Source of the DNA: an uncultured Robiginitomaculum sp.
GTDB lineage: Bacteria > Pseudomonadota > Alphaproteobacteria > Caulobacterales > Maricaulaceae
Reading direction: 5' to 3'
DNA: 35,970 nucleotides
Assembly: GCA_938001945.1 (NCBI GenBank)
Contig: CALLBH010000051.1
Coordinates: forward strand, 1-35,970
The notes below the pieces were generated by a model. That model had not been told where the DNA came from and ran no database searches. It was given only the letters and a program-made list of their open reading frames with translations. Below, one piece after another: positions 3,624-30,110 of this stretch (positions are counted from its first letter, which is position 1; each line of letters begins with the position of its first letter). The translations under genes and the position numbers were made by a program.

Positions 3624-3820
3624 TTATAAATACGACGCTTCATCGCCGTTTCCCCCAGGCCTTCCCTAGCCTTTCCGTTTCATGACAAAAAAAGAAGAAT
3701 ATTTTACTAACCTTGACACAATTTCGGGTTTTAATTCGTCTGCATGGGGTCAAACCTTTTGCCTTGCTCCCCTAATCCGACTCTCGGTAGGGATTAAGTC
3801 TATCTTCAATGCGGCGGATC

Positions 3821-4420: not shown

Positions 4421-4426
4421 GCACTG

Positions 4427-7065: not shown

Positions 7066-7225
7066 TTCCCGTGATCCTCCCCAGTATCACGGTCAAAATG
7101 CGTTAAAATAAAAAATACAGAGTTAACGCGGCGTGCCGACTACAGTCGAAGCCAAGCCTAATTTCATCGACTTAGCCCCAAGGCCTAATTGGATAGGAGC
7201 TGCGCCATAAAGTCGTTGACGTTGA

Positions 7226-8371: not shown

Positions 8372-8417
8372 GGTTCATCCGTAGCCGATTCCACCTGACC
8401 ACCGCATGAATGAGGCT

Positions 8418-9983: not shown

Positions 9984-10756
9984 GATGATGATCCTTCAGA
10001 TTTACCGAGGCGCAAGATAAGATTGTCGAGACAATATTGTCCGGCCTCATTTAGCGCGCGCTCTTCTTTGGATTGAACAATTGACTGTATTAGAACGAGC
10101 ACCGCTGACATGACAAGCGCGACAAGCGTTGTGGTGAACGCTACGCCAAGGCGCTGCGTCACCTGATAGAGAAAATCTTCGGCTTCTGCGTTGGCTGGCA
10201 CTCCAGCATATTGAAGCGCAAACATAATCCCCATCACTGTTCCGATAAAACCGAGGGAGGGGATAAGCCATGTGAGATAACGCAATATGGAATAGCGTAA
10301 ATCGATTTCATGCATGTAGAGCTCAAGTGAAGAATTTAGGACAGATATGGCCTGATCTTCTTTGCGAGATACGCGATATTGGTCGATTGTACGCGTAATC
10401 ATACGCGGCAAAAATGCGCTTTTGGCAAAACGCCGTGAGCTAATACTCTCTTTGATTTGCACTAATGTCGCGACATCTAACTGCCGATCATCTGTAGGCA
10501 AATATCCACGTTTCAGCTGGCTTTGTTCATCGCTGGCGGCGCTCCAACGCAGAAACAACTCGCCAAAGCCAATAAAGAGCGCGACCCACATCACGTTTTG
10601 CACGGTGAAGGGCCAAAATGTAGCGTCGGCATCAAGTAGAATCTCTTGCAGCATCGGGCTCATGGTGAACCGCAAAATACCAATAAATACGATGGCCGCG
10701 AGCACGGACAATAGAAAAACAACCAACCGTCGGATTGTGCTGACTTTAGTAGACAT
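9980..10756 (-). CDS. MotA/TolQ/ExbB proton channel family protein
   Basis: About 4 TM segments; WLIPSLGFIGTVMGIMFAL and LGVAFTTTLVALVMSAVLVLIQ are typical of the family; 4-bp overlap with downstream FGE gene. Confidence 0.85.
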   Translation of the reverse strand: MSTKVSTIRRLVVFLLSVLAAIVFIGILRFTMSPMLQEILLDADATFWPFTVQNVMWVALFIGFGELFLRWSAASDEQSQLKRGYLPTDDRQLDVATLVQIKESISSRRFAKSAFLPRMITRTIDQYRVSRKEDQAISVLNSSLELYMHEIDLRYSILRYLTWLIPSLGFIGTVMGIMFALQYAGVPANAEAEDFLYQVTQRLGVAFTTTLVALVMSAVLVLIQSIVQSKEERALNEAGQYCLDNLILRLGKSEGSSS

Positions 10757-10786
10757 GGCCGCAGCCCCTTTTCGTGAAATATGACA

Positions 10787-11770
10787 TTAATCGCAGACGC
10801 CTTTTTCAGTAGAGGCGAGCGCCATAAATTGTCCGTTATTGTTAATCGACAGATTTTCCATGAAGGCCACGGTGCCGTTATAATCAAAGTAATTTCCCAC
10901 AACAACCGTGTGGATTTCTTTGCGCCCGCCATTCATTTGGGTGATGCGGCGAACAAGTGCATTTGGAGATAATCCATTATTGGCGCGCGGATTAGGTAGG
11001 CCGTCACTGACAAGAAAAATAGCTTCACCCGGACCAGCGAGGAGTTTTTCAAAAGCATCCAACATAGACGCTGAACCGCCAAAACTTCTGGAGATTTGAT
11101 CGGAGAAAGAGATCGCGCCCTCTCGCGCGCCTGCATTGATATTGGAAAGTCCGCCAGTGCTAGGCCAGCTCCTCAGGCGAGGGCCAGTATCAGTTTGCTG
11201 AAATCCGACAACTTTGACGGCGTGATTGTCCTGCAAAGAATTAACAATACGGGTGACAGATTTGGTGACGGAGTCTTCGTGGCCCTGCATGCACTTATTC
11301 ATATCAACGGCGATGACAATGTCGTCCTTTGTCGTTTTCATACCCAAAAAGCGAAAGGACTGAACTACAGGTTTGGGCGCGTCCGTAGGGGCTGGTTTTT
11401 CTTCGACGGGCTCGGGCACAACGATTGCCGGCGCCGCAGCCGCGCGCTTCTCAAGCAGCGCCGCTTCAGCGGCTTTTAATTTGGCCAGAAGTTTTGTTTC
11501 TTCCGACTTTATATCTGATAAATTCGCGCTTGATGCCGATCGTTTTTCCTCAAGCGCTTTTTTCTTGATGACTGTCTCCTCGGCGCTGGTTTCGGCAGCG
11601 CGAAGGAGATCCGCGATGGCGTTATCGATCGGAATGCGCTCGCGTATTTCGTTTTGATAATAAGGAAGCAAGACAATTGCGAGCAGGGCAAAGGCTCCCA
11701 TGGCTGCCGCAAAGAGGTCAATGGCAGAGAGGCTGAAAATCTCAATTGATCGGTCCGGCCGCCGTTTCAT
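10787..11770 (-). CDS. TM-anchored von Willebrand factor A domain protein, degenerate MIDAS
   Basis: N-terminal helix AIDLFAAAMGAFALLAIVLLPYY, coiled coil, Pro-rich linker, vWA core DIVIAVDMNKCMQGH...IFLVSDGLPNP. Confidence 0.82.
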   Translation of the reverse strand: MKRRPDRSIEIFSLSAIDLFAAAMGAFALLAIVLLPYYQNEIRERIPIDNAIADLLRAAETSAEETVIKKKALEEKRSASSANLSDIKSEETKLLAKLKAAEAALLEKRAAAAPAIVVPEPVEEKPAPTDAPKPVVQSFRFLGMKTTKDDIVIAVDMNKCMQGHEDSVTKSVTRIVNSLQDNHAVKVVGFQQTDTGPRLRSWPSTGGLSNINAGAREGAISFSDQISRSFGGSASMLDAFEKLLAGPGEAIFLVSDGLPNPRANNGLSPNALVRRITQMNGGRKEIHTVVVGNYFDYNGTVAFMENLSINNNGQFMALASTEKGVCD

Positions 11771-12711
11771 CGCGCGCGCCCCACGAAATCCCCGCGATTA
11801 TTATTGGCTAAGGCCTGCAAAAATAAGGTCAATCTTTTGTCAGAGGTGTAATCCCCAATCGCAACTGTGTGGATCTCCGCGCGTCCGCGGTTGCGCCTTG
11901 TAATATTGGTTACAATGCTCTCGGGGCTTCCATCATCCGGAGAGCCATCACTGATCAAAATAATGGCTTGGGGTTTTAAATTAAGGGCCCGCACCATGGC
12001 GCTTTGTGTTGGCGTGCCCCCGCCAAAATTATCCGACATACCGCGCACAAATGTGCGGGCTTGAGCCAGAGTTGACGCGCTGGCTTGTTGCATCTGTCCG
12101 GAGCGCGGGAAACTATCATATGTTGGGCCGCCACGATAACCTAATATGACAAAGCGATTATCAGGCTGCATTTGAGACAGAATTTCCTCGAGGGCTTGTT
12201 CGACTTTGGAGGTATGGTCTTCCATTGAACCTGACATATCGACGACGATGACGATGTTCTTTTTGTTGGTTGCAATCCCCAGAATAGAGAACTCGACGCC
12301 TTTACCCGTACTGCGCGGAGGTTGCACTGTGGGTTCAGGAACGGGCGTAGGGCTTGCATCGGGAATGGGAGGCGGCTTAGGAATTTCAACTTCAGAGGTC
12401 TTCTTTAGCACCTCCTGAAGCTTGTCCTCGATGACCGACATATTCTCTTCGGTCGACATATATTGCTTATCAAGAAACCGAATTTCAGCACGCAGCGCTC
12501 TGATTTGTGACATTTCTGTTTGGGTGCTTGAGGCAACAAGGCGGCGTTTTTCCACCATGTCTTCGAGTTCCTCGAAAGAAACATCCGTGCCGCCCAAACG
12601 GTAATAGGGGAACAGTACCAATACGATTAAGATGAATGCGCCCAAGGCTGCCGCAAACAGGTCCAAAGCTGAGATGGAAAAAACCGATATATTGCGCCGC
12701 CGTGACTTCAT
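11767..12711 (-). CDS. TM-anchored von Willebrand factor A domain protein, intact MIDAS
   Basis: N-terminal helix ALDLFAAALGAFILIVLVLFPYY; vWA IVIVVDMSGSMEDH (DxSxS), GGGTPTQSAM, IILISDGSPDD; 4-bp overlap with the next gene. Confidence 0.88.
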   Translation of the reverse strand: MKSRRRNISVFSISALDLFAAALGAFILIVLVLFPYYRLGGTDVSFEELEDMVEKRRLVASSTQTEMSQIRALRAEIRFLDKQYMSTEENMSVIEDKLQEVLKKTSEVEIPKPPPIPDASPTPVPEPTVQPPRSTGKGVEFSILGIATNKKNIVIVVDMSGSMEDHTSKVEQALEEILSQMQPDNRFVILGYRGGPTYDSFPRSGQMQQASASTLAQARTFVRGMSDNFGGGTPTQSAMVRALNLKPQAIILISDGSPDDGSPESIVTNITRRNRGRAEIHTVAIGDYTSDKRLTLFLQALANNNRGDFVGRAR

Positions 12712-12720
12712 GATCAGATA

Positions 12721-13518
12721 TTAACGGCCCAATATACGCCATAACGTGTAAAGCCGTCTTTGGTCTTCTTTTTCTTTGAAATCTTTATCCATATCATTGG
12801 CCAAAGTAATAGCGTCATCCAAGCTTTCACGGTCCATTTCTTTGTTGATAATGTCATTAGAACGCGCCAACCGGCCATCTAAATCTGTCATGTATAACGC
12901 TTCGAGATCATCGATTTCCGTCGTGAAAACCTGAAATTCCATATTGTCGCGCGTTGAGATTAAATTGGCCGCATAATCTTGGCTAGCAAAGGCGTGCGAA
13001 GGGTCATTAGACGCTCCGGCGCGTTCAAGAGACTCGGATAGAATTTGACGAAGAAAAAGGGCGTCTTCAGCAATGAGCGGATCCTCCCAAATAAGGTCAC
13101 CGTCATAGGCTTTTAGGCTACTGATTTGACCGTCTAGATATACGCCGCAGCGATCTTCAAAATCAATCAAATGCTCCATAAACCCGATCACCATTTCAGG
13201 CGCAGCTTGGCGCAGAACCGGATTAGCGATGGCTTCAATAACATCCAATATCGGAGTTTGCGCGTTCACATCAGCGTCGCCATATTGCGAAAGGGCCGCG
13301 CGAAATTGCGGCGTAGCGCCTTCGGCAATATCCTGCGTAAGGCGAAAAAACTGATAGCGCGCAACGTGGTCGTCATTTGGAAAGCCGGACATGACCGTCA
13401 CGCAATATTGCTGGGACGGGGCCACAATAGCGACGTCACCTGAAGGCGCAGCTGTCTGGGCCATAGCTGGTGCGCTGAGCACCGCTAGTCCAGTAATAAT
13501 TGAAAGAAGATGTTTCAT
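12721..13518 (-). CDS. Secreted protein of unknown function
   Basis: Signal peptide MKHLLSIITGLAVLSAPAMAQ; directly abuts the upstream lipoprotein gene. Confidence 0.6.
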   Translation of the reverse strand: MKHLLSIITGLAVLSAPAMAQTAAPSGDVAIVAPSQQYCVTVMSGFPNDDHVARYQFFRLTQDIAEGATPQFRAALSQYGDADVNAQTPILDVIEAIANPVLRQAAPEMVIGFMEHLIDFEDRCGVYLDGQISSLKAYDGDLIWEDPLIAEDALFLRQILSESLERAGASNDPSHAFASQDYAANLISTRDNMEFQVFTTEIDDLEALYMTDLDGRLARSNDIINKEMDRESLDDAITLANDMDKDFKEKEDQRRLYTLWRILGR

Positions 13519-15504
13519 TTAATTCCCTGCGCCCGAAAGACTCATTGGCATTTTGTCAAATGGCGTTGCGACAGGGGAGCCCACAGGCGCCTGCCCGGTT
13601 GGAGTGCCTGCGCTATACGACATGACCTGCGCATTTTTGCCGGCTTTGGTTTCGCGCATTGTTCCGTCTGCGCGTCCTGCGATGAAATTACCCTCCAGCG
13701 CGGTGCTTCCTGCTGCCGTATGGGTTATCATGTAGCCTGCACCTTGCGGTTGCCCGTTAACCGCATATCCGTAATATTCAATCGAGCGACCATCATCAGC
13801 CCGTAGCACGCCAACGCCTGCACCATTCGCTAAACCGTTTTCACATACGCCAAGCCATGTTCCTGACTTTACAGCGCCGTCATGGGTATAGCCGCAACGC
13901 GTCGCGACAGTATCCAGTGAGCGCTGTTTTTGGCTATATAGCGTTTGGAGTTTGCTACGAAGATCTTCAAAGCGGATGGCCGTAATCGTTTCATTTGAGT
14001 CGATTAGATTGACCTGAACTGTTTGCTGCTGCTCCAAAACAGGCGCAACGGAAGAGAGATAATTACTTCCCATCATTTTGGATTGTTTATTCAACGAATA
14101 TGCTTTTGATCCCGTATAGGCGATACCCGCGATGGCGACATCTGTAATGACCTTATTGGCCGCTTGATTACGGCGTTGGCACTCATAATATTCGCGCTGT
14201 GTGCGTGAGCGGCTGCAATCCTGACCAACACCACCATTGGCGATCATCGCGCCAGTCGCGAGCACACCTAAAACTGCCATCGTTGTATTTACATTTTGCT
14301 GACGGGCGAGCTCACGGCGCTCTTCGAGGTGATCATGTTCGGCCTTGAGCATATCGCGGGTCTGCACGCCGATTTCACCATTATAAACACCATCAAACAA
14401 ACGTAAGGATTGCACAGAGAGATATTTTTGCTCGGCTTCCAGCAAACGCTCAGCATAGCGATAGCGCGCGAGATAGTCTGCATCTTGTGATCCGACAATA
14501 GTTAAGGCGGCAAGGCTCGGATCATATTGAGCAATTGCAGCGGCGCGGCTAACCATGGTCGCCTTGTTCACATCCGTGCGGTTAATGATGCCGATGACTT
14601 GATTGGCGAAACCGGAGGAAAATGATGCTTTAAGCGGGTCTTGAACTGACGCGCCTTTAGAATTTATCTTTGCGAGCACTTTTTTATCGAGTTGAATTTT
14701 CTCCAGCGGATATGACGTCACAGTATTTGGCGACATTGAGCCGAATGACTGTGATGGAACGCGCGCAGCGCTATCAGCATTCAAATAAGAAATAAAATCA
14801 AGCGGGGGAACTGATGTTTCAAAGGTTCCATTTTGCAGCGCCGCAAGCGATTGACCAACGCCGCGCCTGCCACTTCCGGCTGAGGTGTTGAGAATCGGAG
14901 CACTCGCTAATTTTAGACCCTGAGTTGGAGCTGCTGCTCTGTGATCACTGTGCACTGTGACGAGCGGAGTCACTAAATCGCCAAATGTCAGGGGCGCTTT
15001 ACCCATCATCTTTTTGGCATCTGGGAAAGAGTAGCTGGTAAAATCGACGGTGACGACGCTGGGCAGGCTTTCTGCTTGTGTCATTGGCTCGGATGTAAGT
15101 TTGCCATTCGCACCAAGTTTAACCGTATGAGGGGAGAGCAAGACGCTGTGCTCTGGCATCTTCGCGGCCATTTCTTTGTAAACAGATAGTGCGTAGTAAT
15201 TAGACTTGATAATCATGCCATCGGCGAGCGCCTGGATCTCTGCGGCATCGCGTTTGTCTTTGGACCATTTGCCGCCAATTCCGCGCTTCGCATAGGCGTC
15301 ATAATAAGCCTGCTTGGCGTCATCTTCAACATGAGCCGGGTAACGCAATACAGCCATGACTGTGCCCGGCGGCGTTTCTTGGCGAAGCGGCTCGGCCATC
15401 GTCGATTTCATTACTGCGGAAGTGCTGATCCCTTTAGCGCTTGTCGCGCAGCCCGTAACCAACACTGCAGTGCTTATTAGAAATGCTGTTTTGACGCGTC
15501 CCAT
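13519..15504 (-). CDS. Large lipoprotein of unknown function, possible MORN-like C-terminal repeats
   Basis: Lipobox FLISTAVLVTGCATS; C-terminal GAGVGVLRADDGRSIEYYGYAVNGQPQGAGYMI...LEGNFIAGRADG. Confidence 0.65.
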   Translation of the reverse strand: MGRVKTAFLISTAVLVTGCATSAKGISTSAVMKSTMAEPLRQETPPGTVMAVLRYPAHVEDDAKQAYYDAYAKRGIGGKWSKDKRDAAEIQALADGMIIKSNYYALSVYKEMAAKMPEHSVLLSPHTVKLGANGKLTSEPMTQAESLPSVVTVDFTSYSFPDAKKMMGKAPLTFGDLVTPLVTVHSDHRAAAPTQGLKLASAPILNTSAGSGRRGVGQSLAALQNGTFETSVPPLDFISYLNADSAARVPSQSFGSMSPNTVTSYPLEKIQLDKKVLAKINSKGASVQDPLKASFSSGFANQVIGIINRTDVNKATMVSRAAAIAQYDPSLAALTIVGSQDADYLARYRYAERLLEAEQKYLSVQSLRLFDGVYNGEIGVQTRDMLKAEHDHLEERRELARQQNVNTTMAVLGVLATGAMIANGGVGQDCSRSRTQREYYECQRRNQAANKVITDVAIAGIAYTGSKAYSLNKQSKMMGSNYLSSVAPVLEQQQTVQVNLIDSNETITAIRFEDLRSKLQTLYSQKQRSLDTVATRCGYTHDGAVKSGTWLGVCENGLANGAGVGVLRADDGRSIEYYGYAVNGQPQGAGYMITHTAAGSTALEGNFIAGRADGTMRETKAGKNAQVMSYSAGTPTGQAPVGSPVATPFDKMPMSLSGAGN

Positions 15505-15664: not shown

Positions 15665-16906
15665 CTAAGCCATTTTGTTCATCAAAAGAACTGCCTTTTT
15701 ATCAGAGGCGCGCATTTTGAGGAACCGCCCTTGGCTAACGCGGCGCATTAGGCGTAATTGAGCCGCGGAGACGGTGTCCATTGTGACGCCTTTTGAGACA
15801 TCGAGATTGTTATCGGCCATGGATTGAGCCGTTTTCGCTTTGGACAGTCCTTGTTCGATTGATTGCTCAAGACTATCTTGATCCAGAGGGGTGTAGTGAA
15901 ATCCTGAGAGACCTTCGCGTTCGGTAACATCAATAAAATCGCCCATCATTGGATAAACAGGCGGCGTTCCATAGATTGCAGCTTGATGCAAAACACCAGA
16001 GCTCCCTGTTGTGCTGTCATAATCGAACACGGCAAGGCGGGCTTGTTTAAAGAAGCCTTCAACGTCCTCTTCGGCGACATAACCGTGGAATTTGATGGCG
16101 TCATCAGATTTGAACATTTTCGCCAAACCCTCCAAATAACCCGGTGTTGCAGGATGATCGCTTCCGCCAATAATGAGGGAAATTTTGTCTTCTTCTGAGC
16201 GGGTTTTATTGATGTTTTGAATGGCAAAAATGAGGCGTTCGAGTTTTTTGTAGGTTCCAAATTTTCCCATCGTCACGATCCTATTGCTGCGCTCAGACAG
16301 GCGATAAGTCTGTAAGGTTGATGCTATTGGAAATGAGCCATGTGGCACCATAAATGCATTTTTTGCGTTGTATTTTGATGTCAAAATTTCGTGGAAACTG
16401 TCCAAGGTCACACTCATATAGCCTGCTTTAAGCATAAGCTTCGTGATTAAGGTTCCAGCCAGTTCAACGATCTTTTGACGAAGCTTTTGGTTCGCTAAAT
16501 TTGTTTGAGCCAAATCGACGGCGTCGATCAGGTTATGCATCAAGACGCCGGTGCCATGGCCTTTAAGCTGGGTTAGCGCGGGGGCAAGAAGTCCAAGGGC
16601 TGCTGGGATTTCTTTGTCCCCAAAGCTAGCCGTTTGCAGGTTAAAGAGCACATTGTCCGGCTTGCATATATCAATCGCTTTGGTGATTTTGTGAACAGAC
16701 AACATGTCGTTAAATGTCCATACGCGGCGCACTTCAATTTTTGGATTAAGATCGAGCTCGGGTAGGGGCTCGTCCATTTTATCGGCAAGGATGATAATAC
16801 GGTCCAGATCAGATCTACGCGCGAATGCATTCGCAAGGTGAAGGGCATATTCATTCAAAGATCCACTACCGGGAGGGAACGCTGTGACGAGGGCTAAAGT
16901 TTTCAT
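15665..16906 (-). CDS. Glycosyltransferase, GT4-like
   Basis: ALVTAFPPGSGSLNEYALHLANAF; NRIVTMGKFGTYKKLERLIFAI; SGVLHQAAIYGTPPVYP. Confidence 0.78.
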   Translation of the reverse strand: MKTLALVTAFPPGSGSLNEYALHLANAFARRSDLDRIIILADKMDEPLPELDLNPKIEVRRVWTFNDMLSVHKITKAIDICKPDNVLFNLQTASFGDKEIPAALGLLAPALTQLKGHGTGVLMHNLIDAVDLAQTNLANQKLRQKIVELAGTLITKLMLKAGYMSVTLDSFHEILTSKYNAKNAFMVPHGSFPIASTLQTYRLSERSNRIVTMGKFGTYKKLERLIFAIQNINKTRSEEDKISLIIGGSDHPATPGYLEGLAKMFKSDDAIKFHGYVAEEDVEGFFKQARLAVFDYDSTTGSSGVLHQAAIYGTPPVYPMMGDFIDVTEREGLSGFHYTPLDQDSLEQSIEQGLSKAKTAQSMADNNLDVSKGVTMDTVSAAQLRLMRRVSQGRFLKMRASDKKAVLLMNKMA

Positions 16907-16946: not shown

Positions 16947-18443
16947 TTAAAGGTTCGAATTGTGGTTTTTGAAGATTTGAGCGGCTGGAAGAGGCGCGCC
17001 GTGGATATTATAAAGGCCGAAATGTTGTTGCTGTTTTCGCCGCCAAGGTCTGCGGCCAACTACGTCCGTGCTGACATGATCAAAGTCATTTAGCGTCCAG
17101 ACAAAAATACCATCAGCGCTGTCCAAACCGCTCAATTGCGTTTGCAGTCGCTGAGCTTGTTTTTTGGCGCTTTTGCCTTGGGTTGAAAATGGCGACCAGC
17201 GCGTCGTTCCAATTTCGGTAATCATCACGGGCTTTCCATTTGCTTTGGCTTTAACGTAGCTTAAGCGAGACGAAAGACCGTCAAGATCGCGGTAGTCGTG
17301 ATAACTGATGAAATCGATATTGGTCGTCATGGCGTCAACGGCGAGATAATCAGACCACCCTATAGTCAATTTGATATCCGGGTTTGCAGCGCGCGCGGAA
17401 TGGGCCATGACGCCAAGCCACGCCGTAACACTGTCCTGGCCCCAGTTCTCAAAATCTAAATCCGCTTGGTTCTTTAAATCAATTGCAAATAGAGCAGGGT
17501 GATCTCCAATTTGGCCGACGATGTCGTCAACATATTTTGCATCTTTGGCCCAATTGGACATCTGATATTGAGGACGTAAGTCAAACAACGTCACAACAAC
17601 CTTGATGTCATAATCTTCGCAGAAATTTAAAAATCTCATCAATCGTTCTTTAGATAAATCTTTGCTCTCTGCTGCTGTAAAGTCTGCATGATTGAGAAAT
17701 ATACGAACAGAATTTCCTCCAAGGTTCTTGATGAGAAGCAAATCTTTGAGAATTTCGTCCTCGGGGAATTCCGTCCAAAACTCATTCCACGGCGCGCTTG
17801 AGGGGTAGTAATTAATGCCGGATAATTTCCCGCTCAGTTCCAACGTCTCATCGTGATTTCGAATAGGAGTATTTGATGTTACTTCGGATGTTTTTTGCAC
17901 CCAGCCGCCCAGCGTAAACATAAAGCGGATGTTACGCGTTTGATGATCCGTGCTGAGTATGGAAATTGTTTCTGCGCTATTGTCGCGGCGTAACGTAATG
18001 CGCAGCGCCTCTTCGGTAAGGCTGATAATACGCATATCCCCATGCACAAAATTGGGAGTAACTTCCCGCGCAATTAGGATTGAATAATCGCAAAACTTGA
18101 ACTTTACAGTGCAAGATGATCCTGAAACGGCGTCGCCAGCTTGGTCAATATAAACAGGACGATCAAATGTAGTGTGCTGCTTTCTGTCGGAAGCTTCAAT
18201 GATGCGAATAAATGCAGCTTTGTCTTTGGCCGATAATTTTTTTTCATGAGCAATGTTGCCATCAATCCATGTTGTAATGTTGTCTTGTTTAGTTTTCGGA
18301 AGCGCATCAGTGAAATAGTCATAGGAAACCGCAGGGGTGCGAAGGTGTAGCGTAATGGCGGCTCCGCCAATCACTGCTACGCTAAGGATTCCTGCAAATA
18401 AGAGGCGCGGATCCACTAGGTTGGAATATCTTGATAGGTTCAT
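16947..18443 (-). CDS. Membrane-anchored TIM-barrel glycoside hydrolase-like protein (GH5-like)
   Basis: N-terminal TM; LLLIKNLGGNSVRIFL, DIKVVVTLFDLRPQY, HPALFAIDLKNQAD, DFISYHDYRDL, KPVMITEIGTTRWS. Confidence 0.75.
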   Translation of the reverse strand: MNLSRYSNLVDPRLLFAGILSVAVIGGAAITLHLRTPAVSYDYFTDALPKTKQDNITTWIDGNIAHEKKLSAKDKAAFIRIIEASDRKQHTTFDRPVYIDQAGDAVSGSSCTVKFKFCDYSILIAREVTPNFVHGDMRIISLTEEALRITLRRDNSAETISILSTDHQTRNIRFMFTLGGWVQKTSEVTSNTPIRNHDETLELSGKLSGINYYPSSAPWNEFWTEFPEDEILKDLLLIKNLGGNSVRIFLNHADFTAAESKDLSKERLMRFLNFCEDYDIKVVVTLFDLRPQYQMSNWAKDAKYVDDIVGQIGDHPALFAIDLKNQADLDFENWGQDSVTAWLGVMAHSARAANPDIKLTIGWSDYLAVDAMTTNIDFISYHDYRDLDGLSSRLSYVKAKANGKPVMITEIGTTRWSPFSTQGKSAKKQAQRLQTQLSGLDSADGIFVWTLNDFDHVSTDVVGRRPWRRKQQQHFGLYNIHGAPLPAAQIFKNHNSNL

Positions 18444-19138
18444 GACAAAAACCTTTTCGGACAGGTGCTGCTGTAGAGCGGTATTGATTGAGACTGCGTA
18501 GCTGCCGAAACGACGAGGCGAACATCATTAGGGCCAAGCTCTGCGCATTTTACATGCGTGAAAATTTGACCGGATACAATTTTCAGTTGGCGGCTCTTGC
18601 GAATGCCTTGATCTGTCTCGATAGTAAGTGTTGCGATATGCCCGCCCTCAATCAAATTTCCAAAACTATCTGTGAGCTCATTTGTCCGCAGCGTCATGCC
18701 ATCACCGGTCATGCGTCTGCGAAGTGTAAAGGGGGTAAGGTCCCCGCTTCCGATCAAAATTTCAACGGGCGCGGAGGCGATGTCGCCAAGATAAGCCGTA
18801 TAGGTCATGCGCCCGCGCCGCACAGGAGCCGAAAGGTCCATAACGGCTAGTCCATGAATTACGTCGAGTGTATATTGCTCTCCGTTTTGCTCGTTTTTGA
18901 CAGTTACAAATTTTGCATTTGAACTTGCGCCGTTTGCCGTCAATGTTTCAACGGCAATATATAGTGGCTTGCCGGGAAGAACCGATTGAGGGCCAATATA
19001 GAGATCGACGTTAGATGTCGCGCATTCCATTTTCAAAGCATCAGTATCATTTAAACAGGCACTACTTAATGTCTCCCCCAAGGCCGGGGCGGATAGGGTG
19101 AGGCATGTAAGGCCCGTAAATATGTATGTCTTTACCAC
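18440..19138 (-). CDS. Secreted protein, possible Ig-like fold; ATGA-coupled to the GH5-like gene
   Basis: Track start 19174 is a TTG inside a sigma54 -12 element; GTG at 19138 gives a signal peptide VVKTYIFTGLTCLTLSAPALG with GGAG upstream. Confidence 0.6.
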   Translation of the reverse strand: MVKTYIFTGLTCLTLSAPALGETLSSACLNDTDALKMECATSNVDLYIGPQSVLPGKPLYIAVETLTANGASSNAKFVTVKNEQNGEQYTLDVIHGLAVMDLSAPVRRGRMTYTAYLGDIASAPVEILIGSGDLTPFTLRRRMTGDGMTLRTNELTDSFGNLIEGGHIATLTIETDQGIRKSRQLKIVSGQIFTHVKCAELGPNDVRLVVSAATQSQSIPLYSSTCPKRFLS

Positions 19139-19170
19139 CGTGGCGTTCTCCAATTGCTGCTCAATAGGTT

Positions 19171-19185
19171 GCAATGGATGTGCCT
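19171..19185 (-). promoter_or_regulatory. Candidate sigma54 -24/-12 promoter for the 19138→15665 operon
   Basis: Minus strand AGGCACATCCATTGC(A): GGCAC / TTGCA with canonical GG-to-GC spacing; deviates only at the first base of TGGCAC. Confidence 0.72.
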
Positions 19186-19236
19186 GAAATTTCAGGGGAA
19201 AATTGGGGGGTATTTCTCAATATCGAAATATTTTCT

Positions 19237-19269
19237 TTGCAAATCGCAAATCAGTTTCGCGCTTTGCGA
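19237..19269. promoter_or_regulatory. Paired inverted repeats (candidate activator-binding sites) between the divergent sigma54 promoters
   Basis: TTGC-aaatc-GCAA (19237-19249) and TCGC-gcttt-GCGA (19257-19269), centres 20 bp apart. Confidence 0.62.
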
Positions 19270-19299
19270 CGAAAAACGGTAAAAATGATGCCAATTCAC

Positions 19300-19314
19300 T
19301 GGCCTATATTTTGC
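19300..19314 (+). promoter_or_regulatory. Candidate sigma54 -24/-12 promoter for the GT2-STAS/flippase/GT-C operon
   Basis: TGGCCTATATTTTGC, canonical spacing; predicted TSS about 19326, 15 nt before ATG 19341. Confidence 0.68.
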
Positions 19315-19340
19315 GAGGTATGAGCAAAATGGAGGACCAC

Positions 19341-20489
19341 ATGTTGGCACAACAAAACGAAATTAATACAGCCCTCAAATCTTGGGAGCTCGAAAAAACA
19401 GCAATCGTAATTCCGTGTTATAACGAAGCCAGACGGTTGCCGTTAGACGCATTTCTAAATCTAACCCGAGAGCGAGATGATATACGCCTCGTTTTTGTTG
19501 ATGACGGGTCTAAGGACGAAACCATCAGTTTATTGTGCGGCGCCATGGCCGCTTTGCCTGATAAAGTTGACGTCCTGCTCATGAAACAAAATGGTGGAAA
19601 AGCGGAAGCTGTACGCCAAGGCCTTAAATACGCTTCTGGACGCGGGCATAAATATGTCGCCTTTTTAGATGCTGATTTAGCAACCCCAATGGATGCCGTT
19701 CTGGACTTTGCCTCAGTGGCGGATCGCATGGATGAAATTGATGTTGTTTTTGGCTCTCGCAAGGGTGGTTTGGGGCATAAGGTTCACCGAGACTTTAGCC
19801 GCAAAATCATTTCTCTTGTTTGTGCGACGATGGGACGTTTGGCGACGGGTTTGCCAATCCAAGATACGCAATGCGGTGCTAAATTATTCAGAAACACGCC
19901 GCAATTTCGGCGAAGCCTGACACGTGCCTTTTCTGCGGGTTGGCTCTTTGATGTAGAGCTATTCTTACGTGTTTCTCATCCTGACCGTAAAAGGCGCGAT
20001 AATTTCTTTGAGTTTCCAGTAATTGAATGGACAGAAATTCCAGGTTCAAAAATAAAATCTTCTGATGTTCTTAAAAGCGGCTTTAAAATGCTTGCCCTGA
20101 TTTTCAATCAATGGCGAATTCGCGATCGATATTTCAAGAAATCCAGTCAAGACGAAATCGAGGGCTTTCAAACGCTGCGTTGTGGTGAAAACTTAACCAA
20201 GCAAATCTTAGATGAACTTTCAGATCATATTGATCACCAAGTAGATGGGCTAATTTTGGACCTTTCAAAGGTAAAAGTCCTTGCGCCTTCAATATTTACC
20301 ACATTAATCAAAACATGCGATGATATTGAACGCAGCGGTTTGAAGCTCAAAGTATGGCTGCCCCACGATGATCATATTGCGCAAACAGCGCTTCAGACAG
20401 GATTTGCGTCGTTATTTGAGTGCGTTAGAGTATCTGCGCGCCCCGAAATAATGCCAAATCACGACCGCTTTGATATGGTCGAGGTATAA
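19341..20489 (+). CDS. Family 2 glycosyltransferase (dolichyl-phosphate glucosyltransferase-like) fused to C-terminal STAS-like domain
   Basis: TAIVIPCYNEARRLP, LVFVDDGSKDET, VAFLDADLATP, QDTQCGAKLF; C-terminus VDGLILDLSKVKVLAPSIFTTLIKTCDDIERSGLKLKVWLP; start revised to ATG 19341 with GGAGG at 19331-19335. Confidence 0.83.
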   Translation: MLAQQNEINTALKSWELEKTAIVIPCYNEARRLPLDAFLNLTRERDDIRLVFVDDGSKDETISLLCGAMAALPDKVDVLLMKQNGGKAEAVRQGLKYASGRGHKYVAFLDADLATPMDAVLDFASVADRMDEIDVVFGSRKGGLGHKVHRDFSRKIISLVCATMGRLATGLPIQDTQCGAKLFRNTPQFRRSLTRAFSAGWLFDVELFLRVSHPDRKRRDNFFEFPVIEWTEIPGSKIKSSDVLKSGFKMLALIFNQWRIRDRYFKKSSQDEIEGFQTLRCGENLTKQILDELSDHIDHQVDGLILDLSKVKVLAPSIFTTLIKTCDDIERSGLKLKVWLPHDDHIAQTALQTGFASLFECVRVSARPEIMPNHDRFDMVEV

Positions 20490-20492
20490 GTC

Positions 20493-21773
20493 ATGATTGC
20501 TTCAACCCTCAAATCCAAATGGGCAAGTTTTGATTTTTTAGGCCCTGCGGCAATACTGTTCCTCTCGGTCAATATTGCCAATGTTGCAAATCTATTATTC
20601 AATATGTTGTTTGCGCGGCTTATGACGCCAGCCCAATTTGCCGATTTAACGCTATTGTTGACGATTAAACTCGGTATTCTGTCACTCTTTACAGCAATTC
20701 AATTTGCCGTTTCGGAAATTGCCGCGTCGCAACCTAATGAAACGGCGGCAAAGACATTTGCAGCGCGTCTATCTCGCGCAAGTTTTAAATATTCTCTGCC
20801 ACTCTGTTTTCTAATGCTGGTCTGCGTCGAAAGTCTCTGCCAGACCTTTAATCTTGCAGACTGGAAAGCCGTTGCAATTTTATGCGCGGCGATCCCTTTA
20901 TTTCTTCCTATGGTAATTTATCGGGGTCTTGCGCAAGGCCGCATTGATGTAAAGAAAATGGTCGGCTCTGTTCAGAGTGAGTGGATTATTCGTCTTGCAG
21001 GCTGCTGGATTCTTTACCAAGCGGGTTTTGGACTGCTGGGTATCGCAGTCGCTTTGGTTTTATCCATCATCGCTGCATTTGTGTTTGCATTAGACAAAGA
21101 TGATATGGCCTGCCTTGTAGCCTCAAAGCCAGTAATGGGTGCTAAGCATCGTTCGTTATTGCTTACGAGCCTTCCTTATGGCGTTCTGTGTTTCGCCCAA
21201 ATTATCGCGTTGGACAGCGATATCCTCATTGCAAAAGCGATGTTTGATAACGATTCAGCGGGCATTGCCGCGGGTATTATGTTGATCCAGCGTATCTTCT
21301 TTTTCGCATTTTTATCATTTGCGATGATTTTACAACCGATTGTTAGCGCAAAAACGGATGCGGCCCATCAATTTAAGAGTCTTTGGGTTCTTCTCAGTTG
21401 CGTCGCATTTATATCTGTCTGCGGTATCGGCGTTATGGCCCTCATGCCGGATTTGTTTGTCATGATCTTTTTGGGCGAACAATATGCAGCGGCGGGGACA
21501 TATGTCGTTTTAGCCGGATGTATCGGCGCAAGCTTTACGATCGCGCATTTATGTACGGTGTTTTTGATCGCAAAAGGCCGGTCCTACGCTCCTCTTTTAC
21601 TGCTGATCTTTGTAACCCTACATATTTGCTCAAATTTAACCGCGTTTAATACAATGTTGGATTATAATCTGGGCGAGTACCTGTCCATAAAGGCTGTAAT
21701 TGTCGGTTTTGGGGCGCTGAGTGTTGCGTCCTACACATTTTGGGATGCGCTAAGGATGAAACGGACTGCATGA
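20493..21773 (+). CDS. Polysaccharide biosynthesis/flippase-like membrane protein
   Basis: Multi-TM; NIANVANLLFNMLFARLMTPAQFADLTLLLTIKLGILSL typical of Wzx/PST-type N-terminus. Confidence 0.75.
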   Translation: MIASTLKSKWASFDFLGPAAILFLSVNIANVANLLFNMLFARLMTPAQFADLTLLLTIKLGILSLFTAIQFAVSEIAASQPNETAAKTFAARLSRASFKYSLPLCFLMLVCVESLCQTFNLADWKAVAILCAAIPLFLPMVIYRGLAQGRIDVKKMVGSVQSEWIIRLAGCWILYQAGFGLLGIAVALVLSIIAAFVFALDKDDMACLVASKPVMGAKHRSLLLTSLPYGVLCFAQIIALDSDILIAKAMFDNDSAGIAAGIMLIQRIFFFAFLSFAMILQPIVSAKTDAAHQFKSLWVLLSCVAFISVCGIGVMALMPDLFVMIFLGEQYAAAGTYVVLAGCIGASFTIAHLCTVFLIAKGRSYAPLLLLIFVTLHICSNLTAFNTMLDYNLGEYLSIKAVIVGFGALSVASYTFWDALRMKRTA

Positions 21774-24700
21774 TCGTTAAGCCTAAAAATTGGGTGTATC
21801 TCTCAATCCTCCTTGCAATTGTTTTGCACGGAGCTTTGCTGCCGTTCACTTATGGGCAAACTTATGACGCTTATATCCACATGTTCTTTGGCAACCACTA
21901 TTTTGAAAGTTGGTTCGACCCATGGGAAACAAAATGGTATACGGGATTTACTGTCACGGCATACCCGCCCGGCAGTCATCAACTCATCGGGCTTCTTCTA
22001 AATTTCGTAGATATGCAGACGGCTTTCATACTTGTGATGGTCTTGGCCGTGACGTTGTTGGTGATTGGCGTTTACAGATTTAGTCGGATTTGGGTGAGCG
22101 ACAAAGCGGCGGCTTTTGCGACAATCTTAGCGGCTTTTGCATCGGGTATATCTGAAACAATACATGTGTTCGGGCAATTGCCGACGATTTTATCAATCGG
22201 TCTGTTTTTAAATGCCTTACCGCATATGGCCGGGTGGATAGAGCGTGGTAAGAAAACCGATCTGGCTCTTGCTCTGATTTTTACAGCCGGAGCGACGTCG
22301 GTTCACCATGTCACGCCATTATTTGGCACTGTGTTCTTTGTTGCGCCCATTGGAGTTGCTGCATGGGTATCGAATTTAAAACGTAACCCACTCCAAACGG
22401 ATGTCCATACGACGCTTCTAAAAAAGGGCCTGCGCCTCAGCATCGCGCCGGCGAGAGGCGTTGTGCTTGGCCTGATGATGCTTGGTTTACTCGTATCGAT
22501 TGTTTTTCCTTATTGGCACTGGTCAATCACAGATCCGATCACACAGGTAAATATCGGTCATGGTAGCCGCGAGAGCTTTATTGAAAAACCTAATCTTGGG
22601 CTGATGTTTTTTGTTATTCCCTGGGGCTTACTCATTGGAGTTTTGCCTTATGTTATTTTGAAATTGAAAAGTCCGTTATGGCCCCTATGTGTGTCCGTCA
22701 TTGTCGCATTTATTTTAGGAACTGGCGGCACAACGCCCATACCCAAAATGGTTCTCGGGCCTGCCTTTGGAATTTTGACGCTCGACCGTTTCACATTTTG
22801 GGGAACCTTGCTAATCCTTCCATTCGCTGGACTGCTTATACACAGTATGGTCTCGGGCCGGTTCCGAATTTATATTGATGCCGCCTTTGGGAAGGTCATT
22901 GGCCGAGTTGGGCTTGTATCACTGATGGTCTGCTATGGCGTTCTGCCTTTGCTGATTGCGGCAATGCCAACAGTAAGGCCAATGCAACCGGACTTCGTTG
23001 AACCCGCACCAATGGTCAAATTTATGGAGGAGGATAACCATTCCAGATGGCGTTATCTTACATTAGGGTTTGGGGATCAATTCGCCTATCACAGCGCCCT
23101 AATCAATGCGGAGTCCGTAGACGGAAATTATCATTCTGCCCGTCGTCTTCCAGCCCTAACAAATTATAATGTAGAGCGGCTTGAGAATTCAAAATTTGCT
23201 GGCGTGCCGGGTTTGGCTTCACTCAATCAATTTTTGACTAACGCTGATAAGTTCCATCTGAAATTCATCTTCTCCAATGATGAATATTATGATCCGCTTT
23301 TGCATTATACAGGATGGAATAAAGTGACCCGTCTTGGAAATGGTATCATGGTGTGGGAGAAGCAAAATATCTCGCCTCTGCCGGATATCCGTGCGCGCAG
23401 AACCATGCCGCGTTATCAGGTATTAATGTGGGGCATAATTCCAATTAGCGCGCTTGCTCTGGTCGGAATCACACTCATTATTCTAACGACCACAGGCCAG
23501 CTCATTTCGGCTAAACGACAGGGCTTTGTGAGCGACGCGATAAAGTCACCAGATGTACCCCTAAAAAGTCTCGCTCTTTTGTGGGTAAGAATCGTTCCGC
23601 TTATTTTAGGCAGCTTAATTCTATTTTTTAGCAGTCGGGCCTTGGTTAGTCACGCTGCGCCTGAGCCACCGGAGCAGGTAATACGAGATTACTATTTACA
23701 TCTTTCATTTCGTGAAATGAGCGCAGCGTATGACTTACTAATTCCCAAAGAGAATTTCACCTATGATAATTTCCTTCGCGAGCAGCGCCTAACGGGTGGT
23801 TTAGTGCCGTCCTATGGCAGCCTAAAATCTGCTGAGACGGTTACTTCAAAATTGGATGAGAACACGTTGTCTACGCAAACGGCTTTGACCTATTTGACAT
23901 CTATCGGTTTGAAACAGGTTGATGTTGAGCATCGACTTGTTAGAGACGCTTCCGGTCAATGGAAGATGAACCATATCCCCAAAGTCAGCCAGTTTTCCAA
24001 AGACATGGTTATGCGAGTGACGAATGTTCAAACCAGCGACCTTACCGGACGGAACATCATTGAGCCGAATAGGGAGGCTGCGGCGATGCTTCAAAGGCCT
24101 GACGTGAATGTGTCGGAAAGCTACCTCATTCAAAAGAATGGACGTCTCTATGTGACGGGCCGCTTACTGAACAGGTCGAATTTTCCTGCTTGTGTTAAAG
24201 TTAGTGCCGATGCGATTGGAGAAGACGGAGATGTTTTAATGACGCAAAGCTCTGGCGTGTTAGGGGCGCATAGACTTCTTCCCGGCGAAAGCTCTCCATT
24301 TGTTATTCGGTTTGAAGGTTTTATGAAAATCGGAGATGCGTCATTTGATACCGCGCATGATCCGACATTATTCAGTTTGCCTGAATTTACCGAGAAGCCT
24401 AAGCGTGCTAATCTCAACGTAGAAACGACGGTATGTTCAGCGGATATATATAAGAACATTGAGGTGTCTGATCCGAGCGTTACGGATGGCATTATAAGTC
24501 TAACAGTGACGAATAACGGGCACCTTCCTGTCAGCACATTGCAGCTAAAACTATCTATGCGCCAAGTCGAAAAGGCGGGTTTGTGGATTGAGCCCTCATA
24601 TTTGCAATTCAATCTTAGGCCGGGTGAAACGCGTAAGGTCAACTTTGCAGCGCCCGTCTCTGATTTTGATATTCACGGCACAATTACTGAAGCACGGATC

Positions 24701-24814
24701 AATGGCCAAATGCGTGGCGTCTCTGGTATTCAGAGCCAGGGCTTACCGGTGATAGGGCCTGATTACGTTGTGAATGTCGACTATGATGCTATGGTTTATC
24801 AACAAAAAGAATAA
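21770..24814 (+). CDS. Large membrane protein, GT-C / PTPS-related-like N-terminal region with long periplasmic C-terminus
   Basis: TYDAYIHMFFGNHYFESWFDPWETKWYTGFTVTAYPPGSHQLIGLL followed by many TM segments; ATG at 21770 overlaps flippase stop (ATGA). Confidence 0.65.
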   Translation: MIVKPKNWVYLSILLAIVLHGALLPFTYGQTYDAYIHMFFGNHYFESWFDPWETKWYTGFTVTAYPPGSHQLIGLLLNFVDMQTAFILVMVLAVTLLVIGVYRFSRIWVSDKAAAFATILAAFASGISETIHVFGQLPTILSIGLFLNALPHMAGWIERGKKTDLALALIFTAGATSVHHVTPLFGTVFFVAPIGVAAWVSNLKRNPLQTDVHTTLLKKGLRLSIAPARGVVLGLMMLGLLVSIVFPYWHWSITDPITQVNIGHGSRESFIEKPNLGLMFFVIPWGLLIGVLPYVILKLKSPLWPLCVSVIVAFILGTGGTTPIPKMVLGPAFGILTLDRFTFWGTLLILPFAGLLIHSMVSGRFRIYIDAAFGKVIGRVGLVSLMVCYGVLPLLIAAMPTVRPMQPDFVEPAPMVKFMEEDNHSRWRYLTLGFGDQFAYHSALINAESVDGNYHSARRLPALTNYNVERLENSKFAGVPGLASLNQFLTNADKFHLKFIFSNDEYYDPLLHYTGWNKVTRLGNGIMVWEKQNISPLPDIRARRTMPRYQVLMWGIIPISALALVGITLIILTTTGQLISAKRQGFVSDAIKSPDVPLKSLALLWVRIVPLILGSLILFFSSRALVSHAAPEPPEQVIRDYYLHLSFREMSAAYDLLIPKENFTYDNFLREQRLTGGLVPSYGSLKSAETVTSKLDENTLSTQTALTYLTSIGLKQVDVEHRLVRDASGQWKMNHIPKVSQFSKDMVMRVTNVQTSDLTGRNIIEPNREAAAMLQRPDVNVSESYLIQKNGRLYVTGRLLNRSNFPACVKVSADAIGEDGDVLMTQSSGVLGAHRLLPGESSPFVIRFEGFMKIGDASFDTAHDPTLFSLPEFTEKPKRANLNVETTVCSADIYKNIEVSDPSVTDGIISLTVTNNGHLPVSTLQLKLSMRQVEKAGLWIEPSYLQFNLRPGETRKVNFAAPVSDFDIHGTITEARINGQMRGVSGIQSQGLPVIGPDYVVNVDYDAMVYQQKE

Positions 24815-24815
24815 A

Positions 24816-24853
24816 CGAATTGCGTTATGCAATTCGACATTCGCATTTTGCAA
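24816..24853. promoter_or_regulatory. Paired inverted repeats (candidate activator-binding sites) upstream of TolC-like gene
   Basis: CGAATTGC-gttat-GCAATTCG (24816-24836) and TCGC-atttt-GCAA (24841-24853), centres 21 bp apart. Confidence 0.62.
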
Positions 24854-24915
24854 ATATTAGTCTGAATTAGTGATCAATTAACCATCTAAGCCATTGTTTT
24901 TATTGAAGGGCTGAC

Positions 24916-24930
24916 TGGTCTTTACCTTGC
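24916..24930 (+). promoter_or_regulatory. Candidate sigma54 -24/-12 promoter for the TolC-like gene
   Basis: TGGTCTTTACCTTGC(A), canonical spacing; predicted TSS about 24942, upstream of ATG 24960. Confidence 0.68.
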
Positions 24931-24959
24931 ATTGTTTAAGGCAAATGAAAGGTGACATT

Positions 24960-26402
24960 ATGCACACAACACAAAATTATGGTCGGAAATCCCTGAAGGT
25001 TTTATTGCTCGGAAGCATCTTCTTTTTGGGAGCCTGCGCCACTACAACTACGCAGTATAATAGCGACAACATCGAATTGCGTATGTCGGAGCTTCCTCAA
25101 ACGCCGCCACTACCAGCGGGCTTTGAAGAAGCGCCTTTATCACTTGAGGACGTTAGAGCTATGGCGGTTAGCCGTAATGCAGAGTACCGTCAGAAATCGG
25201 CCCGCATTCTGCAAAGCGTAAGTCAAAGAGGCGGAAACAAAGATCTTATGCCGCGCCTTTACGCGCAATCATTTGGTCGGTGGCGGAGCAATACGGATGC
25301 GTCTGTTGGCGTTAGAGTCGATGACCCTAATAGCAATATGCCTGTTGATTTTTTCACGGCGCAAGACCGGACATTTGCCAATTCAAATATCTCTCTCAAT
25401 TGGAATCTGCTTGATTTAGGTCTGACCGGTTACATGAAAGGCGTCTCGAATATCGAAGATTATGACGCGCAAGAACAGATGCGTCTTGGATGTCATCAAA
25501 TGACGGTTGATGTTGAACGCGCATATTGGCGCTATGTTGCTTACAAGCGAGCTGTAGATAAATCTGCGTGGCTAAATGATCGCATTGAATATGGCATGCA
25601 ATTGTCAGAAACGCATATGGAAGAAAACCCTGAGAGTCGTCTTGAAGAGCTTATGTATCAACGTGAACTCATTGATATTAAGCGCTGGTACGAGTCCTTG
25701 TTTCGCGGATTAGTCTCCGCAGAGGCAGATATGGCAAAATTGTTGAATGTTCCTGTGGGTACTAAGATTTCTCTCGACCCTGATCCAAATTACAATGAGA
25801 CCCTAGGGCAAGTTGAAGAGTTTGATATTAGTTCACTCGCAATGGAAGCCTATCAGAACAGACCTGAAATTCGGAGGGCCCTATATAATGTCGATAAGAA
25901 AGAGCTAAATAACAAACAAGAAATTCTGCGTCACTTACCGGGGATTAATATGTTTGTTTCTGGCAATAATGACACGAATAGTTTCAAGCTTAATCAGGAT
26001 TTCTTTTCGGCCGGCGTTGACTTGTCCTGGAATGTTTTAGGTCTCTTAGACCTCGATCGGAAAAACAAACTCGGTAAGTCTGAGCTCGCATTGATGGAGC
26101 AAGATGTGCAGGTCGTCGCCACAGCAATTTTTGCGCAAATCGTACTGGCTTATCAGGACGTGAAAAATATGGAGCATGAGGTTGATTTAGCCTGGAGAGC
26201 GAAAAGCATTCAAGGTGAGATCACACAGCGTCTCTCCAGCGATTTTGAAAAAGGTGACGCCCGAGAGATATATGTTGTTAAAGAGGAGCTTCTAAGAGAG
26301 ATGAGCGTGATCAGAGAAGATCTATCGCGCGCCGATCTCTTTGCTGCACGTGCGCGCTACGATCTAAGCCTTGGCGTCGTTAAAGCCTGCGAAGCCGGAT
26401 AA
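24960..26402 (+). CDS. TolC-like outer-membrane factor lipoprotein
   Basis: Signal/lipobox LLLGSIFFLGACATT; paired helical OMF-type regions (NISLNWNLLDLGL, VDLSWNVLGL); start revised to ATG 24960 with AAAGGTGA upstream. Confidence 0.75.
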   Translation: MHTTQNYGRKSLKVLLLGSIFFLGACATTTTQYNSDNIELRMSELPQTPPLPAGFEEAPLSLEDVRAMAVSRNAEYRQKSARILQSVSQRGGNKDLMPRLYAQSFGRWRSNTDASVGVRVDDPNSNMPVDFFTAQDRTFANSNISLNWNLLDLGLTGYMKGVSNIEDYDAQEQMRLGCHQMTVDVERAYWRYVAYKRAVDKSAWLNDRIEYGMQLSETHMEENPESRLEELMYQRELIDIKRWYESLFRGLVSAEADMAKLLNVPVGTKISLDPDPNYNETLGQVEEFDISSLAMEAYQNRPEIRRALYNVDKKELNNKQEILRHLPGINMFVSGNNDTNSFKLNQDFFSAGVDLSWNVLGLLDLDRKNKLGKSELALMEQDVQVVATAIFAQIVLAYQDVKNMEHEVDLAWRAKSIQGEITQRLSSDFEKGDAREIYVVKEELLREMSVIREDLSRADLFAARARYDLSLGVVKACEAG

Positions 26403-26435: not shown

Positions 26436-27872
26436 TTAACCGGTCAGTTCAATTTTTTCTGAAGGCTGGGCAATGTCCCAGCCTTCTTTTTTACGGTAAA
26501 CGGTTGAAGGACTGATGCTTAGCATATCAGAGGCCTTTGGAATGCTTCCGCCGCGCAGCTCAATTGCCGCTTCAATAATAATCCGCTCAATATCTGCTAG
26601 GGGTTGATCCAGATTTATTGTCAATTCATTGGGGTCCTTCGGCGCAAGGGTAACTTCTTCGATGAGACTATATGCGTCCGAGGATACCGCTTTTTGAGGG
26701 GATGTTAGTGACAACATATCCGGCTCTAGAGTGTCCGCATTAAACATCACAACAGCTTTGCGTATGGTGTTTTGCAGCTCCCGGATGTTGCCAGGCCAAC
26801 GATGAGCGAGGACTAGAGACTTGGTCTCTTCGGAGAGGCCTCTAAATGACTTACCCTCTTCCTCGGAAAAGCTTTTTAGAAAGCTGCGTGCAAGTTCGAG
26901 AACATCTTGATCGCGATCGCGCAGGGGAGGCAGGTCAACGGTTAGAACATTTAGACGGTAATAAAGGTCTTCGCGAAATCGCTTTTCTGTGACTTCCTCA
27001 AATGGATTTCTATTTGTCGCACAGACAATGCGCACATCAACTTCTTCGGTCCAATCACTGCCCACGCGTTTGATCTGACTGGTCTGAAGGAATCGCAAAA
27101 GCTTAGCTTGCAAGCCAATATCCATTTCGCAAATTTCATCTAAAAATAATGTTCCGCCATTCGCCTGACTTGCAGCGCCTTTTCGCGCGGCGTCTGCGCC
27201 AGTGAAAGCTCCTTTGACGTGACCGAAAATTTCAGACTCCATCAGGTTTTCTGGTATTGCCGCGCAGTTGATTGCAACGAAAGGTTTCTTCTTGCGATCA
27301 CTGACATCGTGAATGGCACGCGCCGTGACTTCCTTACCGGTCCCAGATTCTCCGGTTACAAAGACCGGCGCTTTTGAGTTGGCGATACTTTCGATTGTTT
27401 TGTAAACAGCGAGCATAGATGAGGAGCTGCCAATGAATCCTGGCAATGTCATTGTGCCTACAGCCTTAGATAGACTACTGACTTTAGTTTTAAGCGAAGC
27501 GCGTTCAATCGCATTTTTGATGGATGTAACAAGACGCTCTTCCGGGAACGGCTTTATCAGAAAGTCATAAGCGCCCAGACGCATGGCATCCACAGCGGAG
27601 TTCACCGACCCATTGGCCGTAATGACGATAAATGTCGTTTCGCTCTGCGCCGCGTCAATGTCAGCCAGAATTTCCAGTCCGCTTACTTCAGGTAATTGCA
27701 AATCAAGGACGACTGTCTTGTACGCGCCTGTCTTTAAAATATTTAAAGCGGTCGCGCCATTTTGGCAAATCTCCGACGAAATGCCCGCATTTTTCAAAAG
27801 CTTCTCATACATGAGCGCCATGGATAAAGTGTCTTCAATAATTAGTACATCAGCTGTGTTTTGGGGGCTCAT
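26436..27872 (-). CDS. NtrC-family sigma54-dependent response regulator
   Basis: REC TVVLDLQLPEVSG; AAA+ TGESGTGKEVTARAIH; GAFTGA loop (VKGAFTGADAA); Fis-type HTH AAIELRGGSIPKASDMLSISPSTVYRK. Confidence 0.95.
   Translation of the reverse strand: MSPQNTADVLIIEDTLSMALMYEKLLKNAGISSEICQNGATALNILKTGAYKTVVLDLQLPEVSGLEILADIDAAQSETTFIVITANGSVNSAVDAMRLGAYDFLIKPFPEERLVTSIKNAIERASLKTKVSSLSKAVGTMTLPGFIGSSSSMLAVYKTIESIANSKAPVFVTGESGTGKEVTARAIHDVSDRKKKPFVAINCAAIPENLMESEIFGHVKGAFTGADAARKGAASQANGGTLFLDEICEMDIGLQAKLLRFLQTSQIKRVGSDWTEEVDVRIVCATNRNPFEEVTEKRFREDLYYRLNVLTVDLPPLRDRDQDVLELARSFLKSFSEEEGKSFRGLSEETKSLVLAHRWPGNIRELQNTIRKAVVMFNADTLEPDMLSLTSPQKAVSSDAYSLIEEVTLAPKDPNELTINLDQPLADIERIIIEAAIELRGGSIPKASDMLSISPSTVYRKKEGWDIAQPSEKIELTG
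26461..26492 (+). terminator. Intrinsic terminator for TolC-like gene, inside the 3' coding end of the convergent response regulator
   Basis: GAAGGCTGGG-CAATGT-CCCAGCCTTC then TTTTTT. Confidence 0.85.
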
Positions 27873-29909: not shown

Positions 29910-30110
29910 AATACTCCTATGGGTGGCATTATGAATCAAAGCGCTTAACAAACGTTCAGGTTGTGTGGTTAGGAAGGCCTTAACATTTGCGGCGTGAGTT
30001 AAGCGGATGCCAACAATTATTATAGAACAAAGAGACGTATAATTTTACGTCTTTATTCTTTGGAGGAGGCAAGTTTATAATTGATACTCATGTATCAGCA
30101 GCTCAAAAAA

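Follow-up and report, generated by a model that had tools for sequence, protein, structure and literature searches.

How is the presumed extracellular polysaccharide locus of this Caulobacterales genome switched on, and which regulator acts on it? The window, i.e. the whole stretch of 35,970 nucleotides that was analysed, is contig C51 of a 2.1-Mb draft genome that is 77% complete. Based on comparison of sequences, we suggest that the locus is very probably controlled by a phosphorelay-driven, RpoN-dependent switch with a linked LuxO-like activator. The genes concerned are the following:

15665-16906, minus strand: glycosyltransferase (Glycos_transf_1), end of the minus-strand operon
16947-18443, minus strand: glycoside hydrolase-like protein (Glyco_hydro_cc / Cellulase family 5), 4-bp overlap with the gene at 18440-19138
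18440-19138, minus strand: secreted protein, predicted to contain Ig-like beta domains, starting at GTG 19138 instead of TTG 19174
19341-20489, plus strand: family 2 glycosyltransferase with C-terminal extension, starting at ATG 19341 instead of TTG 19203
20493-21773, plus strand: flippase-like membrane protein, without Pfam hit, putative role taken from position and membrane character
21770-24814, plus strand: large PTPS_related membrane protein (PF10131); ATG 21770, which overlaps the stop of the gene before it, is the likely start
24960-26402, plus strand: TolC-like outer membrane protein (OEP, PF02321), start ATG 24960, not TTG 24927
26436-27872, minus strand: LuxO-like NtrC-type response regulator (receiver, sigma54 AAA+ domain with GAFTGA, Fis-type HTH), proposed activator
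27882-29951, minus strand: hybrid histidine kinase (PAS, HisKA, HATPase, receiver, HPt), proposed phosphorelay input

We presume that the locus makes an extracellular polysaccharide, judging by its gene content: two glycosyltransferases together with flippase-like, PTPS-related, glycoside hydrolase-like and TolC-like proteins. A fold search with the secreted protein yielded generic Ig-like matches only, and no exosortase or PEP-CTERM family was reported among the locus proteins scanned. The C-terminal part of the family 2 glycosyltransferase (20200-20489) looks STAS-like by eye, with no Pfam report of such a domain. Past the minus-strand operon, at 1560-15504, there are two hybrid kinases, von Willebrand-type proteins, a MotA-like protein and a MORN-like lipoprotein (as judged by eye); these genes are outside the conserved locus. 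In several relatives an MBOAT O-acyltransferase and a second large protein are inserted between the TolC-like gene and the activator (L040:12831-16426, G032 and equivalents). The insertion, absent from the window, suggests that acylation of the polymer is variable.

The first-pass annotation had proposed divergent sigma54 promoters with exact -24/-12 spacing in front of the two operons, and both are located where it placed them:

19170-19185, minus strand: sigma54 -24/-12 promoter AGGCACATCCATTGCA (complement of these positions), GG-N10-GC, predicted +1 at 19159, in 16/16 aligned loci
19300-19315, plus strand: sigma54 -24/-12 promoter TGGCCTATATTTTGCG (core TGGCCTATATTTTGC at 19300-19314), GG-N10-GC, predicted +1 at 19326, in 16/16 aligned loci

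The transcription starts it expected, about 19159 and 19326, follow equally from the placement of GG-N10-GC. Within the family, 16 of 137 genomes, belonging to 5 genera, have an orthologue of the glycosyltransferase at 19341-20489, and so does one genome from a different family of the same order. Our alignment comprises 16 loci from 15 genomes, one of which (G084) has two. The genome G066, left out by the motif filter, has the same two sites at the same distance, and sites and distance match as well in the locus from the other family (G327). In all 16 aligned loci both divergent sites have GG and GC 10 nt apart, as in the consensus TGGCACG-N4-TTGC, and the distance from the minus to the plus site is 130 bp in 14 loci and 131 bp in two, across 5 genera. 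Mean pairwise identity reaches 0.81 at the minus site, 0.75 at the plus site and 0.83 at a central dyad described below, compared with 0.48 in the remaining intergenic DNA; the invariant intergenic columns belong mostly to the promoter pair, the dyad and the Shine-Dalgarno GA. Agreement of the plus site with the -24 consensus is limited to TGGC, and G is present at -11.

A match to the core sequence by itself is weak evidence for sigma54 sites, since such matches are common in the window: 59 one-mismatch occurrences of TGGC-N7-TTGC were found against 49 expected, which is no enrichment. This frequency would be expected to please anyone who regards the -24/-12 matches as products of chance and assumes that another sigma factor is used. 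We consider that explanation extremely improbable, as both sites and their spacing are kept in 16 loci against a diverged background. Further, in 3000 shuffles of the 202-bp intergenic region a plus score of at least 24.75 and a minus score of at least 26.75 never occurred together (singly, they were reached in 5.3% and 0.4% of the shuffles, respectively); the scoring weights follow the sigma54 consensus and are not a fitted matrix. Sigma70-like sites are rarer than in shuffles, and between enhancer and promoters the IHF consensus is matched with two mismatches at best. The draft genome contains one rpoN match (PF04552, 220 bits) with the RpoN box ARRTIAKYRE. Conservation across the 16 loci is the decisive evidence for the predicted promoter pair, and this comparative evidence strongly supports divergent sigma54 promoters at the polysaccharide locus, together with revised gene starts.

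As regards these starts, TTG 19174 indeed lies inside the -12 element of the minus promoter and TTG 19203 upstream of the plus promoter, as the first-pass annotation had pointed out; both are mechanical longest-ORF starts. Its replacements hold as well. GTG 19138 is supported by GGAG upstream, by a plausible signal peptide and by its position next to the start of relatives, being the codon that adjoins an ACG aligned with the ATG of several of them. ATG 19341 follows GGAGG at a distance of 5 nt, and relatives start with an aligned ATG. This gives predicted 5' leaders of 21 and 15 nt. A third correction concerns the TolC-like gene, where TTG 24927 falls within a sigma54 site; the predicted start must move to ATG 24960, in agreement with the relatives.

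Midway between the divergent promoters there is an element that the first-pass annotation had not noticed, a central dyad shared by the two of them:

19236-19250, no strand: central enhancer-like dyad TTTGCAAATCGCAAA of the form TTTGC-N5-GCAAA, centre 19243, in 16/16 loci
19256-19270, no strand: weaker second dyad TTCGCGCTTTGCGAC at 20 bp from the central one, identity 0.67 across the 16 loci

The central dyad is offset by +66/67 from the minus site in 16/16 loci, and its distances to the two predicted transcription starts are 84 and 83 bp in all of them. The published LuxO enhancer is TTGCAWWWTGCAA (PMC10162802), and a dyad of this type, TTGC-RAAWY-GCRAW, is present in 16/16 loci; the strict LuxO 13-mer is exact in some loci only, the version in the window, TTGCAAATCGCAA, being one base off. 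A pattern scan of the genome itself gives only five exact matches to TTGCRAAWYGCRAW. Two of these, including the central dyad, belong to this locus; the other three (C89, C215, C220) have no convincing sigma54 partner.

The same arrangement of dyads and promoter, likewise missed before, is found upstream of the TolC-like gene:

24819-24832 and 24840-24853, no strand: two enhancer-like dyads, 21 bp apart
24916-24931, plus strand: third sigma54 promoter TGGTCTTTACCTTGCA, predicted +1 at 24942, TGGYC-N6-TTGCA aligned in 11 loci

Centres of these dyads are 116.5 and 95.5 bp upstream of the predicted transcription start; the copy at 24840 is an exact TTGCRAAWYGCRAW and the other has one mismatch. 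GG-N10-GC is present in the promoter, which departs from TGGC (TGGT), and most relatives have the same T. Paired dyads and promoter line up in the 11 aligned loci.

A dyad by itself is no proof of an activator, and it might instead bind a different factor, such as a repressor or a nucleoid protein, without being an enhancer at all. Conservation at the TolC-like promoter extends to a TTAACCAT-like site, and other factors therefore probably act in the locus. We nevertheless find it very improbable that the dyads serve such a factor: the fixed 84/83 bp to two promoters and the two copies 21 bp apart at the third fit sigma54 enhancers, and the dyad follows the enhancer of LuxO. At 24878-24889 the window contains TTAACCATCTAA, which is kept as TTAACYAYCTAA between the TolC-like enhancers and promoter in 11 loci and which resembles a CtrA half-site. 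Another sigma54-like site (30430, minus strand), in front of the hybrid kinase, has no dyad nearby and was set aside.

If the dyads are enhancers, which protein would bind them? The likely activator and the hybrid kinase are encoded in the same locus, a fact that had escaped the first reading of the sequence. The best NCBIfam model for the regulator at 26436-27872 is LuxO (NF041946, equivalog), matched over the full length with 543 bits, below the curated cut-off of 800 bits; next comes PrsR (TIGR02915) with 406.7 bits, again below its cut-off of 502.6 bits. LuxO is also its best solved relative. In a tree of 20 sequences, which includes one LuxO (Aeromonas), leaves out SypG and has several long branches, the regulator groups with Aeromonas LuxO and homologues from Azospirillum, Paroceanicella and Pseudorhodobacter with support of 100/99, apart from the other activators of its genome. 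Its recognition-helix motif SPST-YRK matches that of Aeromonas LuxO. A conserved upstream dyad and an AAA+ activator with GAFTGA are both present, and we infer that they belong together.

The genome itself has several other sigma54 activator-domain genes, and some further activator could be missing from the assembly because the draft is 77% complete. It is conceivable that the sigma54 promoters are real and respond to one of these (FlbD, NtrC, an NtrX-like or an unsequenced protein), the linked LuxO-like regulator controlling something else. We regard this as improbable, given that the dyad agrees with the enhancer of LuxO and is found again close to other LuxO-like activators, and that the linked activator is kept together with the locus. 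Among the 16 family genomes with the locus, the activator was recovered in 15, and activator and kinase genes are conserved together with the polysaccharide genes.

Recurrence of the dyad elsewhere needs to be read with care. All 16 family genomes with the locus contain the composite pattern of dyad and sigma54 site, and so do 3 of the 121 that lack the locus (a reversed-pattern control gave one match in 137 genomes), an association that largely reflects orthology of the same intergenic DNA and not independent events. The combination also occurs at non-homologous promoters, namely those of the TolC-like gene, of H-NOX and of a 118-aa protein, and near a LuxO-like activator on a Paroceanicella plasmid. 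Similar clusters of dyads and sigma54 sites are located near LuxO-like activators in G130, G026, G112 and G079. The Paroceanicella case and these four provide independent support for the proposed pairing of LuxO-like activators with the dyad.

Proteins of the family of roughly 118 aa have the dyad and a sigma54 site upstream (G032:C74:6547-6903, G101:C187:473-820, G088:C1:1612612-1612953); they lack a significant Pfam match, and none was found in the draft genome of the window. We think they are probable distant targets of the regulator. In two relatives, G081 (L203:4717-7732) and G085 (L246:4055-7073), genes for H-NOX (PF07700), a PAS histidine kinase and a receiver-kinase adjoin the LuxO-like activator and the hybrid kinase, and the H-NOX gene is preceded by the dyad and a sigma54 site. 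Our own draft genome, at its 77% completeness, yielded no H-NOX.

A possible course of activation by the linked LuxO-like regulator is as follows. The hybrid kinase (27882-29951; PAS, HisKA, receiver, HPt) would pass phosphate to the regulator (26436-27872), which would then bind the TTGC-N5-GCAA dyads, i.e. the one at 19236-19250 with its weaker neighbour and the pair at 24819-24853. Bound regulator would loop to RNA polymerase-sigma54 and thereby open three promoters. The minus promoter at 19170-19185 would drive the secreted protein, the glycoside hydrolase and a glycosyltransferase; the plus promoter at 19300-19315 would drive a glycosyltransferase, the flippase-like protein and the PTPS-related membrane protein; the promoter at 24916-24931 would serve the TolC-like gene, presumably for export of the sugar product. 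Because the central enhancer is placed at the exact midpoint, one bound oligomer might serve both divergent operons at equal distance.

Control of exopolysaccharides by sigma54 is a known theme (PMC3162934). The syp locus of Vibrio fischeri with SypF/SypG (PMC10162802, PMC12369376) is likewise a polysaccharide locus under a sigma54-dependent response regulator, with an HPt-containing kinase as input and enhancer sites upstream, and in some members an H-NOX/kinase input is shared (hnoX-hahK there, the H-NOX-kinase of G081 and G085 here). In V. fischeri the hnoX-hahK operon feeds SypG (PMC12369376), and in V. parahaemolyticus H-NOX acts on LuxU via a kinase (PMC6759604). In contrast to syp, the present locus belongs to Alphaproteobacteria, has other glycosyltransferases and a TolC-like exporter, contains a LuxO-like TTGC-N5-GCAA dyad where the motif reported for SypG is TTCTCANNNTGMDWN (PMC10162802), and places one enhancer midway between two divergent promoters. 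With the LuxO/qrr promoters of Vibrionaceae it shares the best-scoring family of the activator, the dyad TTGCAWWWTGCAA and sigma54 promoters, but the activator scores below the LuxO equivalog cut-off and the targets here are polysaccharide genes. The PrsK/PrsR systems of PEP-CTERM exopolysaccharides (PMC1569441, PMC9850573) also link a sigma54-type response regulator to exopolysaccharide genes; however, the PrsR model scores lower (407, cut-off 503), and no exosortase/PEP-CTERM family was reported here. A sigma54-controlled polysaccharide is of a known kind; what one would not have expected is that its wiring in Alphaproteobacteria is LuxO-like. A literature search found no paper on this locus, most subscription journals being outside its coverage.

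With more doubt than confidence, we put forward a wider conjecture. Throughout Caulobacterales, surface polysaccharides might be controlled by LuxO-like activators with TTGCA-type enhancers, and in some lineages H-NOX might add a nitric oxide input; the LuxO/SypG/H-NOX wiring might then be an old module of polysaccharide control, and the quorum-sensing LuxO of Vibrio one specialised descendant of it. If the H-NOX link in the two relatives is functional, one can test in Alphaproteobacteria how nitric oxide came to control biofilm polysaccharides. The proposed switch would offer a testable unit of regulation, complete from kinase and activator through enhancers and three promoters to targets, for an uncharacterised Caulobacterales polysaccharide. 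It also gives a LuxO-like regulator from outside the Vibrio group a likely binding site.

Finally, in G026 (L271:5519-6796) and G130 (L270:12477-13754) the gene for a 425-aa RpoN-like protein with sigma54 core- and DNA-binding domains has glycosyltransferase and flippase genes as neighbours and a LuxO-like activator in the vicinity, and is itself preceded by a sigma54-like site and dyads.
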